From assembly GCA_023053545.1 (NCBI GenBank), contig JAKZAN010000005.1, forward strand, positions 8,370,001-8,434,000: a DNA stretch of 64,000 nt. Reading direction: 5' to 3'. The notes under the pieces are model-generated. The model was not told the DNA's origin. It searched no databases and worked only from the letters and a program-made list of their open reading frames with translations. Shown piece after piece: positions 12,001 to 30,000 of this stretch. The position numbers and the translations under genes were made by a program. This DNA comes from Lepidurus packardi (lineage: Eukaryota > Arthropoda > Branchiopoda > Notostraca > Triopsidae). The first letter of the stretch is position 1; each line of letters starts with the position of its first letter.

Positions 12001-15000
12001 AGTTTTCTAAGATCAGTAATCCCGCGTACACTTTGCCAACTGTTAACTTGCCAGTATTCAATTCTATGCATCCCCAAATTTAGCCCGTTACTTAAATATG
12101 CTTCGAACTATTTATATAAGTTATTTAGCAAACCTGCATCGGGTGGAATAATAAGGTTCAAGACTTTCTTAGCTTGCAGGGGCCAAATTTTCTTGATAGT
12201 TACGCGTAATTCTTGATTGGCTTCGTCCATTTCATCAGCTACCGCCGCCACAGGAAGTTTATGGATCAATTAGAGTCACACAATCCATGCTAGTAAGTTA
12301 CCTGGTCGCATTTTGATGCTTAAATTCTCTCGAATGAGCGCAAATAAAGTGCTTGTGAACTGAACTTTGCCGTCACTATCCACGGGCATATTCATTCGTA
12401 TCAATTTCTTATATGCTAGTCGATATGGGCATTTGTTGCCGAAACCCAGAGGTGGATCCATGTTCTTTAGCATGTCGTACATTTCTGTGTAATGAATCTT
12501 GCCCCTGAAGCCAACCGAAAAATTAAGCGTAATTTCTTCCGAGTTTGCACACACTTCCAAACTTACGTTGCATTGGGGTCATACTCAGCCCATATTCTGA
12601 TGAATTCATCCAAGTGATGAGCGCCGAGAATGGAAGAATCACGGGTTAAGTAGTCGAAATTGTCCATAATGACAGCGACGAACAAATTCAACATCTAGAA
12701 AATCAAACAGCGTTCTTACGCTTCCATAGGCTAGACTTTCCAGATAGATTTATACCAAAAATGAGCAGTAAAAGATGAAGGAGACGAAATAGGCATACGC
12801 CAAATTGGAACCGCATTCTTTGCCTTCGAGTATGTTACCCGCTTCGTCGTACTTGTACGCTCGAGAATCACACGGTCTGCCTTTGACACAAGCCAACATG
12901 ATATTCGGCCATGCTTCTCCCGTTGCACATCTGTTCAGGCCCCCCCATAAAAGTACCACCATTAGACCAATATCTTATGAAACTGACCGTTGCACTTGAT
13001 CCGAATGAATGTAATGAAAAATGAGTGGGTTGGTGAAACGACGAGGTTAGGGTTTGATGAGCGGTTAAAATACGTTGAGCGGACTTGATGACTTTGACAA
13101 CGCAAGCTTGCACAATGTACAATACATGCAAGGTGGTCGCAAAAGGCGAAGTACTTTGCACAACAAACATGCACAGAAGAATGACAATCAGGAAGACAAA
13201 TATCGCGTAAAAACAAATAAATTAAAAAAAAAACGTAAACTCAAATCTCTAATATAAGACTGATTACAAAAAGGTGAGAATTGCATCCACTGGCCAGGTG
13301 TGGAACTACTTGCCTGAAAAGTAACATTAAGCCCTGTATAAAGGTCCGGAAGTTGTTATGCCGGTGTATGGATGTGGAGGGGTCCAGGACTATGTTACCG
13401 AACACCTACAATGGGGCAGAACAGGCAAGGACGAGTAAGGTTTCTTGCGAGGTCCAAAAATAATAGATACAAATAAACATTACTACAGGATTCTAACACT
13501 AAAGCTATGATTACGTACGGTACGGACCAATTTTAATAAGTCCCGCTAGTTCTAAGGACGTTTCATAGCGAATCATACCTACGAAGGAAAATTGCAGTTT
13601 TTCCCGTAACTACAACTAAGGGGTGAGCTAATTAGAGAGAGAGAGAACCATTCAGACTAGATATGCGAATCCAAAAATGAAATGGTACTGAAAAAGGTGG
13701 AGAGGATATTTATAACAACAGTGACAAATCCAGTCACAGCGACACCCATCAGGCAATATAATACACGACATCAATGATGACTAGACAGAGAATTCAGGAT
13801 CTTTGAACTTGCGTTTGGTCTCCGATCAAACGTTCCTTCTTAAAACAAGCTACTTTTTTTTTTTTTATTTTTTACTTCCGGTTATGAAGATTGAAGCGGA
13901 AGGGAGAGAAAAGAAAGATCGACGTCCACTACAATTACGATTGTTGCTACCTTGCGACGTCATGCCGATGGGCTAATCAACGGACAAGGGAGCGGATTGA
14001 GGTTAGAAGCGCGGTTAGACGAACGTAAACGATTGCGAATAAGTAATAGAGGAAGCAAACATGAGTTGTGCGATATCCCGTGAATGAGTAGGGGGGTTCA
14101 GAGGGAACTCACCGAAACAAGAGTAATAAAGCGGCGAAGAAAGACTGAAAGTTGTTATGACGGTTGAGGGCCGTGTCGGGGTCAAACTTCATATTGCCAA
14201 ACACCTTTGAAAGGTGGCCATTAAAACCGATTAAGTTCATTAGCATTTTTTTAAGTATCGCCTGAAAAATAAGTGGCTTTTGTTTTTGCTACCCAGGATC
14301 TAAAATTTCTGTCTACTTTCAAGTTTAAACCGATCCGAAATCCTTAAAAATGTGTGCCACCTGACGAAACAACTCCGAATCTTTACCTGCATGCCAATAA
14401 TGGCGTAGATGAAGAACAGCATGGCAATGAGAAGACAAACGTAAGGAAGAGCCTACCACAAAGAGAAAATGCTCATCAGTAGAGAATCCTTTAGTCTCGT
14501 TGATCGAAGAAAATTGTACCATCTTTTACCTTGAAAGATTGTACGAAGGTCCATAGCAGGATTCGAATGGTATAACCTTGCCTTAGTAATTTGATTAAGC
14601 GCGCCGCACGAAAAAGTCGCAGAAAACCGACATTGATAAAGTTTTCCTACAAAAATTAATAGAATGATCGGTATTAATCTGGGGAATTGGGTTTCTCATA
14701 GCAAGCTATTTTTTTTTTACCCCAAACTCCACAACCAAGGCATCAATGATACTTCCCACAACAGTAACAAAATCGAAGGTATTCCACGGGTCTTTGAAGA
14801 AATTCTTTGCTCGCGTAACGAGAAGAAACATGTTAATATACCGCTTTGTGACACATGAGCTTCAAAGAAAGGGGATGTGACATTGGAATGAAGGGAAAAG
14901 GATTTTTTAAGGAAACTATTCAGGAAGGAGACTAATTACGTTGAAAAAGCAATGAGACAGCGACAGAAGAGTAGAGGATGGAGGGGTAAAAGCAGTAAGT

Positions 15001-27000: not shown

Positions 27001-30000
27001 ACTGTGGTATATATGGGAGAGCACGAAGCTAGAAGAGCTAATTTGCGTGCAAGGAGATTGCAAAGGTTCATCCATCGCTGTGTGGCAATGACTTCATCGA
27101 AAAGGTTTCTTCTTGGAAAGGGGCAGAGGGTTTCTAAAAAAGGCTGTTCTACTTACTAGGGATGCCTGAGACAAGTTTGAGTGGCCTGAGCACGCGGATG
27201 GCGCGTAACGTGCGCAGGTCCACATCTAACTCATCTTGCGCGAAGAGCGTAACGAATCTGCAAAGGGGGAAACATAAGGGCGCAGTCTAGCCAGGTTTCA
27301 CTAACGCGATTTCTTCCTCTATTTATGAGACTAATTGATGCATGCACACTTTTCCTTAAAAAAATGGCTCAATCGTCAATGGATCGAACCAGAGAACCCC
27401 AAGTTGGCCTTTTTCAGTCGATTTTCACTATGGCCACAATATACATGCATTTTCACAAGGAAATTGCGCAATTGGCATTACATACTATCGCACTCGAATG
27501 CAACAATGCATGGGAAAACTACGGCAGTTGGCTTCGCTATGGCTACAAACTAAATTACTAAATTGGACTAAAACTAGCATTGTTTTGGTAAAATAGTTTT
27601 AGACTATGGTTCGTAGAGGGCGTCAGGGCGCTTTCTCACCAAGCCATTGGAAATAAGCTCACAATTCATCTAGTGCGGTTAGCCTAGGGCTAAAAAATTG
27701 CTTCTCTATCTAATCTTGATACTAATTCGAAGACTAATTCGAGTTGGCTAGCAGCAGGGATATTGGCTATGATTTCTGTCTTCGTTGGCTATAATTTCTT
27801 TTTTGTTGCCGTCGTTAATGTATCGTGACTTACTAGGAATGCGTGAGACCAATTTGAGTGGTCTGAGCACGCGAAAGGAGCGCAACATACGCACATCAAA
27901 TTCCACACTGGCCTCAGCGAATATGGTCATCGACCTAACATCATCAACTTCTCTGTTATCAAAATGAGCTTGACAGTATTCAAACTCGGCTAACACTAAG
28001 TCACTTAAAGTCGTCGAAGTAAGTCTTAAACTCTATCAATTAAATACACAAGTACAAGTAAGCGTCGACGAACTTACCCGGTTACAACGACGACGAAATC
28101 CATCATATTCCAGATATTTCGTAGGTACGATCCACGATGTAAGGCAAAACCTAACGCTAAGATCTTCAACGTAGATTCCACAAAAAAGATTCCCAAAAAA
28201 TATGGTTCCGTTTTCTCCTACAAAGGAGGGGAAAAGAAGATTATTTAGCTCAGCTACCAGACAATCAATACTCCTGTGTGGGCAAGTCAACCTACCAATT
28301 TTTGAGCTAAGGGTGTCTTGTCTCCGTTAGGCAAATGTTCCTCTAAAGCCAACACCACGCAATTGGCGATGATGGTTAACAAGACTGCGTATTCAAACGG
28401 AGTGGATTTCAACCGTTAAGGAAAATAGTTTCGTAAAGAACAAATTGACTTTCATCAATGGGTAAATGGTATACGTCAGAGCTCAATAAGAAAAAAAACG
28501 AAAAGACATCCTGGGGACCCGCAAAATAAAAGAGACAGAGGGAGAGAAAAAAAGGAAAAAGCTCGTCCATAACATTCCCAAACAGTTTTTGGTCATTTGG
28601 GTCTGCAATGCCGCACCGAAAAGGATCGATCGTTGGTTTTAGCTATCAAGCTTACGCACACCGTCTCTTGTTTTCTTACAGCGTATATACATACCTCTTT
28701 CTATGGCTTCCAATATGCAAGTGCTTTATAGCCGCTGCTCGCTTAGACCTGCCTAGATCGCACATAAACGTGGCCTATCCCTGTTGTTAAAGTTGGATAA
28801 GAGCTGGTTGCAAAGCTGCATCCGTTGTCTCTTGATTACTACGCAACCAGCCCACTTTAGATTACCTTTTTTACGATTGTTTCAGGTTTAGTAATCTATT
28901 TTTTAATTAAACTAAACCCATCCTTCATCCGGACCTACCCTCTTGGCACCAGTAAAGCCCATTACAAAATTGGGAGTTTTTCATGGAAAATAAATAATAT
29001 AGAAGCTAATGAAGCGCTCAAATTATTGGCTTAAAAAAGGATATGGCCATTCGATGATAAAACGGGTGTAACGCCGGATGATGTTCCGCTCACTGAGTAT
29101 GAAAAGCGAGCTGGGCCCATCGCCGATACTCCCACTGAGTCCAGCACCCCCCGGGCCGGTCGAGCTACCTCCTGCCCCGCCTCCCGGCCGCCTCGCCCCG
29201 GCCATGCTAAGGCCGGCGCCCTTGCCCAACCCTAGGACGCCGCCTGAGTACTCCTCTGCTTCAGCATGCTGCGCAGCAGCTTCTTGCGCAGCGGCTAGCC
29301 TACAATGGGGGGAAAAGGAAACCATGTTAATGATCGCTAGAGCATATACTTGGGAGAACACTTTTTTGGGGGGGTCTCTAAAGTTTCCCAATCAAATTTC
29401 ATTTGAAAACGAATATCGGCATATTTTTCATGTTTTACGAAATAAAATCTCTCCAAGTTTCAGAAGGTCTGGTTACTTAAGTGGAAAGGTGATTGCGCTA
29501 CATTTAATTTGAGTTTAATCAATTGATACGAATTAATACGATTAATACTAAATAAATAAGAATAAATTAACACAAATTGGCAATTGCAAATTCAAAATAA
29601 ACAATACACAGTTTAGAGAACTAACCAAAGGTTTAATCTTTAATCCGGGTTAGTTTCTGAGTGTGCGGATCGAGTCCAAATTGGTCTTGGAGACAAATCT
29701 ATATTCTCAGAGCGAATGAAGCAGGCTTGTATCGACTAAGTTCCTACTTGCTCTATTTCGTCAGCTTTGCTTGCTTAATGAACGGGTAGAAGGGCAAATG
29801 GTTAGGAGAATAAACTGTGTGGGAGCTTATAGAATGGCGTAAGATGACGAACGATCTCGTGTTATATGACGAATTGCAAAAATATCAAGTTCAGCACTTT
29901 GGAGTTCCCGGGACAAGCAAGTGACCCAGACCAGACGGACGGTATTTCATCACGGCAATTAGAAAGAAAACTTAAATGTGTCATTTTAGCTCTTTTTGTC

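Follow-up and report, generated by a model that had tools for sequence, protein, structure and literature searches.

A CaV2 gene with five tandem exon pairs

The window analysed here, a stretch of 64,000 nucleotides from the genome of Lepidurus packardi (contig JAKZAN010000005.1, positions 8,370,001 to 8,434,000 of the forward strand), encodes on its minus strand, from 29,299 to about 7,950, one CaV2 (cacophony-type) alpha-1 calcium channel subunit. Our model of the gene (11957..29299) comprises 38 exons and covers 29,299 down to 11,957, with the 5' end and the C-terminal coding sequence, which by eye continues past 11,957 to about 7,950, lying outside it. Five of the 38 modelled exons have a tandem homologue, which is located between the same constitutive neighbours and has equal phases. 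All of these exons lie on the minus strand, and we refer to the upstream copy of each pair as A and to the downstream copy as B. At the first site, IS4A (27834..27934) and IS4B (27157..27257), each of 101 base pairs (bp), supply the IS3-S4 loop and S4 of repeat I. The I-II linker has two alternative exons of 116 bp, I-IIA (25177..25292), whose donor GTTGGG is off consensus and which retains Y, W and I of the beta-subunit site without its QQxE part, and I-IIB (24737..24852), which carries the canonical beta-binding motif and aligns there with human CaV2.1/2.2. The IIIS2-S3 loop and S3 are encoded by IIIS3A (20804..20916, 113 bp), of a pancrustacean type with extra DM residues, or IIIS3B (19938..20044, 107 bp), of a general bilaterian type, and upstream of this pair lies the constitutive exon IIIS1-S2 (21115..21304), which has a GC donor (AAG/GCAAGT). 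IVS2A (16757..16867) and IVS2B (15171..15281), both of 111 bp and phase 0/0, provide the IVS1-S2 loop and S2. Finally, IVP-A (14113..14204) and IVP-B (13314..13405, with a GC-AG donor), both of 92 bp, encode the IVS5-pore turret and pore helix P1 of repeat IV, and are followed by a constitutive exon (12756..12930) containing the repeat IV selectivity motif CATGEAW.

The two copies of a pair are 42-60% identical in protein over 26 to 38 aligned residues and 60-70% identical in DNA, with tblastn E-values of 7e-8 to 5e-14 in a 28 kb target, a likeness that, judged from the sequences, is far beyond chance. All ten copies are open and have usable splice signals, counting the GC donors of IIIS1-S2 and IVP-B and the weak donor of I-IIA, and the exon chains consisting of all A and of all B copies are both open as well. 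Adjacent homologues of similar length, with the same phases and intact splice signals, were found at five of five sites, and the original prediction, which had proposed pairs at these sites with these lengths (101/101, 116/116, 113/107, 111/111 and 92/92) and with phases and flanking contexts common to each pair, is borne out on all of these points. Its figure of 32 channel types is correct as arithmetic (2^5), but presumes an independent choice at each site. No other credible exon copy was seen when the 38 exon peptides were compared with positions 5001-33000 of the window at E-values up to 0.2, exons below 11,957 and the 5' end not being among the queries; the leftover matches outside the modelled exons all had E-values of at least 0.018, and none was plausible as an exon.

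On sequence grounds the gene is a CaV2 (cacophony) alpha-1 orthologue, as had also been proposed. Compared with the PDB, the protein matches human CaV2.1, 2.2 and 2.3 best, at 2087, 2048 and 1987 bits, compared with 1514 bits for the best CaV1 and 603 bits for the best CaV3, which places it nearer to CaV2 than to either, and the Pfam domains above cut-off are Ion_trans in four stretches, GPHH and Ca_chan_IQ. Repeats I, II, III and IV of the conceptual protein contain the selectivity motifs TMEGW, TGEDW, TGEGW and TGEAW, which we take to be the EEEE selectivity locus. Outside the alternative exons, identity is 91.1-91.4% to four Daphnia proteins (97.9-99.5% among those four), 88.3% to protein P0122 (probably Artemia), and 84-86% to shrimp, damselfly and cockroach. 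A repeat II probe against the 108.6 Mb assembly recovered its own two exons at 96% identity, with all other matches at 65% or less.

Reading frame and the choice between copies

The pairs differ in what could enforce exclusivity, since the exon lengths are 2 mod 3 in the IS4, I-II, IIIS3 and pore pairs and 0 mod 3 in the IVS1-S2 pair. In the first four, joining both copies or skipping both leads to a stop 11 to 52 codons from the start of the site. Frame loss at these four sites would be compatible with the mutual exclusivity of the original prediction. At IVS1-S2, by contrast, joining and skipping of both copies keep the frame open, so that exclusivity is not enforced by the frame there, and 18 of 300 of the protein models described below have an over-long segment at this site. 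The introns between copies measure 324-1475 nucleotides (nt), so that steric hindrance within a short intron is ruled out as the basis of exclusivity, and the splice signals of the pairs are U2-type (GT-AG, or the GC donors of IIIS1-S2 and IVP-B), which rules out an incompatibility between U2 and U12 sites; neither of these hard mechanisms therefore applies. The sole AT-AC intron is away from the pairs, upstream of IS1: it lies between exon N and IS1 (28402-29044, minus strand), starts with ATATCCTTT, ends with AC, carries TTCCTTAAC close to its end, and reads as a U12-type AT-AC intron by what we take to be the U12 consensus. For human exons, passages of PMC5740500 state that joining would break the frame in 60% of clusters, and infer that 484 of 629 clusters depend on other mechanisms.

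A search for RNA stems found no inverted repeats of at least 14 nt at IS4 and I-II; IIIS3 has a single pair of 19-nt arms and a palindrome, IVS2 has 19 pairs and the pore pair five, those around the IVS2 and pore pairs being mostly AT-rich among the matches listed. The 19-nt arms at IIIS3 (19964-19982 and 20767-20785) are 84% complementary, one lying inside IIIS3B and the other in the intron right after IIIS3A, and by sequence they are a possible RNA stem. We also counted five splicing-factor patterns, two of which were compared with 500 dinucleotide shuffles. TGCATG, which we assume to be the Rbfox element, occurs 11 times in the introns flanking the pairs, compared with 1.7 in the shuffles (0/500 as high), and twice in the constitutive introns, compared with 0.6 (64/500 as high). 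Paired YCAY is raised too (28 vs 13.9; 1/500), and so is its antisense control (16 vs 8.3; 9/500). Weighing against a regulatory role for TGCATG, its antisense is likewise raised (5 vs 1.4, with 6/500 as high), and the enrichment concerns one genome and one of five motifs examined, so that it amounts to a lead only.

Both copies in arthropod protein models

Three overlapping protein searches (the best 120 of 7987 matches, all 112, and the best 120 of 345) yielded 306 different proteins, eight of them from Daphnia, in all of which the five sites were read off by alignment; as the sample was picked by similarity to the window and to single exons, it is uninformative on frequencies. At IIIS3, IVS2 and the pore, respectively, the Daphnia pulex isoforms X9, X10 and X11 read B/A/B, A/A/B and A/A/A, the D. 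carinata isoforms X4 and X2 read B/A/A and A/B/A, and D. magna X7 reads B/A/A. Both copies thus appear at each of the last three sites, in five of the eight possible combinations among six model isoforms, and these database models suggest that Daphnia uses both, so that the use of both copies implied by the original prediction is probable. Two further Daphnia proteins were excluded, namely D. galeata P0006, in which A and B are joined at IIIS3, and D. magna P0246, which is without IS4, is apparently skipped at IVS2, and has both pore copies joined with other residues between them. By identity, the Daphnia pore A type is a near tie (21 vs 20 of 30), and it was assigned as A because of the pore tree and because it precedes the B type in P0246. 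Both types are also annotated at IVS1-S2 and IVS5-pore in shrimp, mosquitoes, bees and an ant, and at IVS1-S2 in spiders and horseshoe crabs. Two points count against a use of both copies throughout. The Daphnia isoforms are NCBI model annotations, and neither IS4A nor I-IIA is found among the eight Daphnia proteins.

Unjoined A-type exons at these first two sites were found, among the 306, in 26 proteins at IS4 and ten at I-II, none of them from Daphnia. Those at I-II come from a mayfly, Anopheles, Penaeus monodon, Drosophila, fruit flies and a bee, and the IS4A type is also present in Aedes albopictus P0032 and in P0122. As for the B copies, IS4B is identical to D. pulex P0001 in 33/33 residues, I-IIB to D. 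pulex in 38/38, and IIIS3B to both D. pulex and P0122 in 35/35.

Age and distribution of the pairs

The trees of single exons suggest that the pairs are old. In the IVS2 tree, built from 60 hand-picked rows, 21 B copies fall on one side of a branch with support 100/100; they come from the window, Daphnia, shrimp, prawn, bees, wasp, ant, mosquitoes, bugs, moth, horseshoe crab and spiders. In five spider models (P0138, P0155, P0156, P0158 and P0220) A is followed by B within one protein, which places the pair in one gene in spiders. Three molluscan CaV2 models (P0121, P0123 and P0202) show two alternative sequences at IVS1-S2, one with a longer loop. The IIIS3 tree (44 rows) separates 19 A copies from 25 B copies across one branch (99/95), with the window, Daphnia, winged insects, malacostracans and a barnacle on the A side, and the window, Daphnia, P0122, springtails, an ostracod and chelicerates on the B side, together with molluscs and other lophotrochozoans, a nematode, a hemichordate and vertebrates. 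By signature, the 306 proteins divide into 195 A, 110 B and one joined, all 110 B types coming from the search that returned 112 proteins, in which no winged insect is among the named matches. FDM, containing the two extra residues of the window IIIS3A, is found in 139 of the 195 A-type segments (in 119 of them at the end) and in 0/110 of the B type; the Daphnia A exons are without it. Tree and signature counts together indicate that the B type is general among animals and the A type pancrustacean, and on these sequences IIIS3A is the sole type seen in winged insects, while both coexist in Daphnia and in the window gene. In the pore tree, the window A copy groups with those of shrimp, prawn, amphipod, crab, mantis shrimp, barnacle, mosquito, midge, mayfly and Daphnia at 91/96, which is short of the full-support mark of the tool.

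Several features of these trees weigh against so simple a history. They rest on 30-37 columns, with most forks lacking resolution. For the IVS2 tree the bootstrap values had yet to stabilise, A copies are not monophyletic, the B copies nest weakly among chelicerate A copies, and the springtail and ostracod rows lie with the outgroups. In the pore tree no grouping of the B copies is recovered, and the A-like exons of Hymenoptera, Lepidoptera and flies fall outside the A group. Even so, the topologies suggest that the IVS1-S2 pair predates the split of chelicerates and pancrustaceans, and that the IIIS3 and pore pairs predate that of branchiopods and insects.

Alternative readings of the pairs

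One could suppose that the last three pairs arose by recent duplication in this lineage alone; the original prediction had suggested that they may be lineage-specific. Such a reading would fit the single IIIS3 exon type in the human CaV2 entries and in every winged-insect protein examined, as well as the pore tree, where the window B copy lies only with D. pulex and one annelid. The copies of IIIS3, IVS1-S2 and the pore are, however, not nearer to each other than to the exons of other arthropods; IVP-A, for example, matches Penaeus in 29/30 and Anopheles in 28/30 residues, compared with 17/30 for its own B copy. The IVS2B clade extending from this animal to shrimp, insects, horseshoe crab and spiders, the shared IIIS3A side and the pore A group likewise contradict it, as do both types of IVS1-S2 and pore exon annotated in shrimp, mosquitoes, bees and an ant. 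The IVS2 and IIIS3 trees and these identities rule the recent origin out, the pore tree does so only in part, and overall we consider it extremely improbable. The sequences instead suggest that the pairs are not novel to L. packardi but old and later differentially lost, with some insects having lost members.

It is also conceivable that, in at least one pair, one copy is a degenerating remnant and the other is the only one used. The weak donor of I-IIA and the GC donor of IVP-B would be compatible with decay, as would the presence of IS4B and I-IIB in all six complete Daphnia isoforms. All ten copies are nevertheless open and have usable splice signals, and members of every pair resemble exons of other species: IIIS3B is invariant between this animal and D. 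pulex, to which IIIS3A matches in 31/37 and IVS2A in 30/37 residues, while IVS2B matches D. carinata in 25/37, IVP-A Penaeus japonicus in 29/30, IS4A P0122 in 30/33 and I-IIA Penaeus monodon P0238 in 27/38. We therefore regard decay as very unlikely. Somewhat less remote, although still unlikely, is the idea that the IVS1-S2 copies behave as cassette exons, whose in-frame joining would give a third channel type. Both lengths are multiples of three, and 15 of the 18 over-long models at this site are clean A-then-B (from Culex, Sabethes, Rhodnius, Nasonia, Augochlora, Polistes, Anopheles and spiders), the others being one mollusc and two ants that run into other sequence; a further 3/300 models look as if both copies were skipped. 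Yet a second S2 helix would be expected to disturb the topology of the repeat IV voltage sensor, and the sites where joining breaks the frame show over-long segments, read as joined copies, less often (I-II 0/294, IIIS3 1/306, pore 2/295, IS4 6/280). Prediction software joins copies where the frame is unbroken, and would produce just such an excess of joined models where both lengths are multiples of three. We think it probable that the pairs are real alternatives, and the reading that fits them best is that of old splice pairs which lineages have lost to differing degrees.

Comparison with fly cacophony and other systems

The original prediction gave fly cacophony documented pairs at the first two sites only, and published counts for the fly conflict. 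Passages of Bell et al. 2025 (PMC11828482) give Drosophila cacophony only two mutually exclusive sites, while those of a paper in Genome Biol Evol 2022 (PMC9741552) count three tandem exon events, of which only one is located there, and report the I-II pair in crabs, Daphnia, flies and ants. The pore pair is a candidate for the third event, since models of D. virilis, hydei, arizonae, navojoa and albomicans have a pore exon with A-like residues; the fly exon lies outside the A group of the pore tree, and no B-type pore exon of Drosophila was seen among the protein models examined. The IS4A/IS4B and I-IIA/I-IIB pairs of the fly, as described in parts of PMC11828482 and PMC12370356, occupy the same two sites in the same order as here. 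In the fly, IS4B is stated to be required for active-zone localisation and high-voltage activation, the I-II choice to tune release, and IS4A to have one basic residue more than IS4B (passages of PMC11828482); here IS4A has six and IS4B five. The canonical beta-binding motif of I-IIB is a further likeness to the fly, from which the window gene differs by its three additional sites. No description of an IIIS3 or IVS1-S2 pair was found in the titles, abstract beginnings and passages covered, with supplements and subscription papers outside this range, so that absence from print is not shown; a term search of the main text of PMC3228551 gave no mention of cacophony or a calcium channel, nor was a calcium channel mentioned in the parts of PMC7318467 available.

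Human CACNA1C and CACNA1D likewise combine multiple tandem exon swaps within a single calcium-channel gene, with three each, but these are CaV1 genes, and all ten human and fly events are in different exons (passages of PMC9741552). Invertebrate NALCN tandem pairs also provide an alternative exon in a four-repeat channel, presumably located in the pore. That swap is said to change calcium/sodium selectivity (work cited in passages of PMC9741552), whereas the present gene keeps its repeat IV selectivity motif CATGEAW unchanged, in the constitutive exon that follows the pore pair.

Elsewhere in the genome, a CaV1-like paralogue (L016; G000:C3:12821823-12822041 and 12822287-12822502) has two tandem IIS5-pore exons of the type YWRSL.NLV..LLGMQ.FGGKF, so that a tandem pair occurs also in the animal's L-type channel gene. 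Downstream of the CaV2 gene in the window, at 3371-5104 on the minus strand, lies an open frame of 577 codons that by eye has the look of a rhodopsin-like G-protein-coupled receptor.

Implications

Taken together, the exons, their phases, their splice sites and the frame loss at four of five sites make us fairly confident that this is a branchiopod CaV2 gene with five sites, each splicing in one of two homologous tandem exons. As an observation, the original prediction is right and precise, and its interpretation half right. Each swap would exchange a functional module while leaving the channel topology unchanged: S3-S4 of voltage sensor I at site 1, the Cav-beta binding segment of the I-II linker at site 2, S2-S3 and S3 of voltage sensor III at site 3, S1-S2 and S2 of voltage sensor IV at site 4, and the pore helix ahead of the repeat IV selectivity filter at site 5, where the helix would be altered and the filter unchanged. 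The S2 glutamate is kept in both IVS2 copies and the S3 aspartate in both IIIS3 copies, and given the functional roles that we assume these residues to have in the voltage sensor, both copies should make working sensors. Trans-acting splicing factors would presumably choose the copy, with frame loss as a backstop, and the IVS1-S2 copies would be exclusive too. By analogy with sites 1 and 2 of the fly, the likely effect would be that presynaptic channels are tuned cell by cell in their activation voltage, their conduction and their regulation by subunits, with sites 3-5 presumably also having electrophysiological effects.

There is perhaps an even chance that arthropods inherited a many-site CaV2 splice code, made up of the IS4, I-II, IVS1-S2 and IVS5-pore pairs, with the IIIS3 pair present by the time branchiopods and insects diverged, and that branchiopods keep all five pairs while winged insects dropped the ancestral IIIS3 exon. 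On this view, arthropod splicing would do what vertebrates do with three CaV2 genes, and the fly, the basis of the subject, would be a pruned form. The coexistence in branchiopods of the winged-insect IIIS3 type with that of other animals would make a case of reciprocal exon loss, and the natural exon variants could serve as ready-made material for structure-function tests. Transmitter release is set by presynaptic calcium channels, and work on how a single CaV2 gene generates diversity rests on the two exon pairs of the fly, whereas this gene and those related to it suggest that many arthropods can also exchange voltage sensors III and IV and the pore helix of repeat IV.

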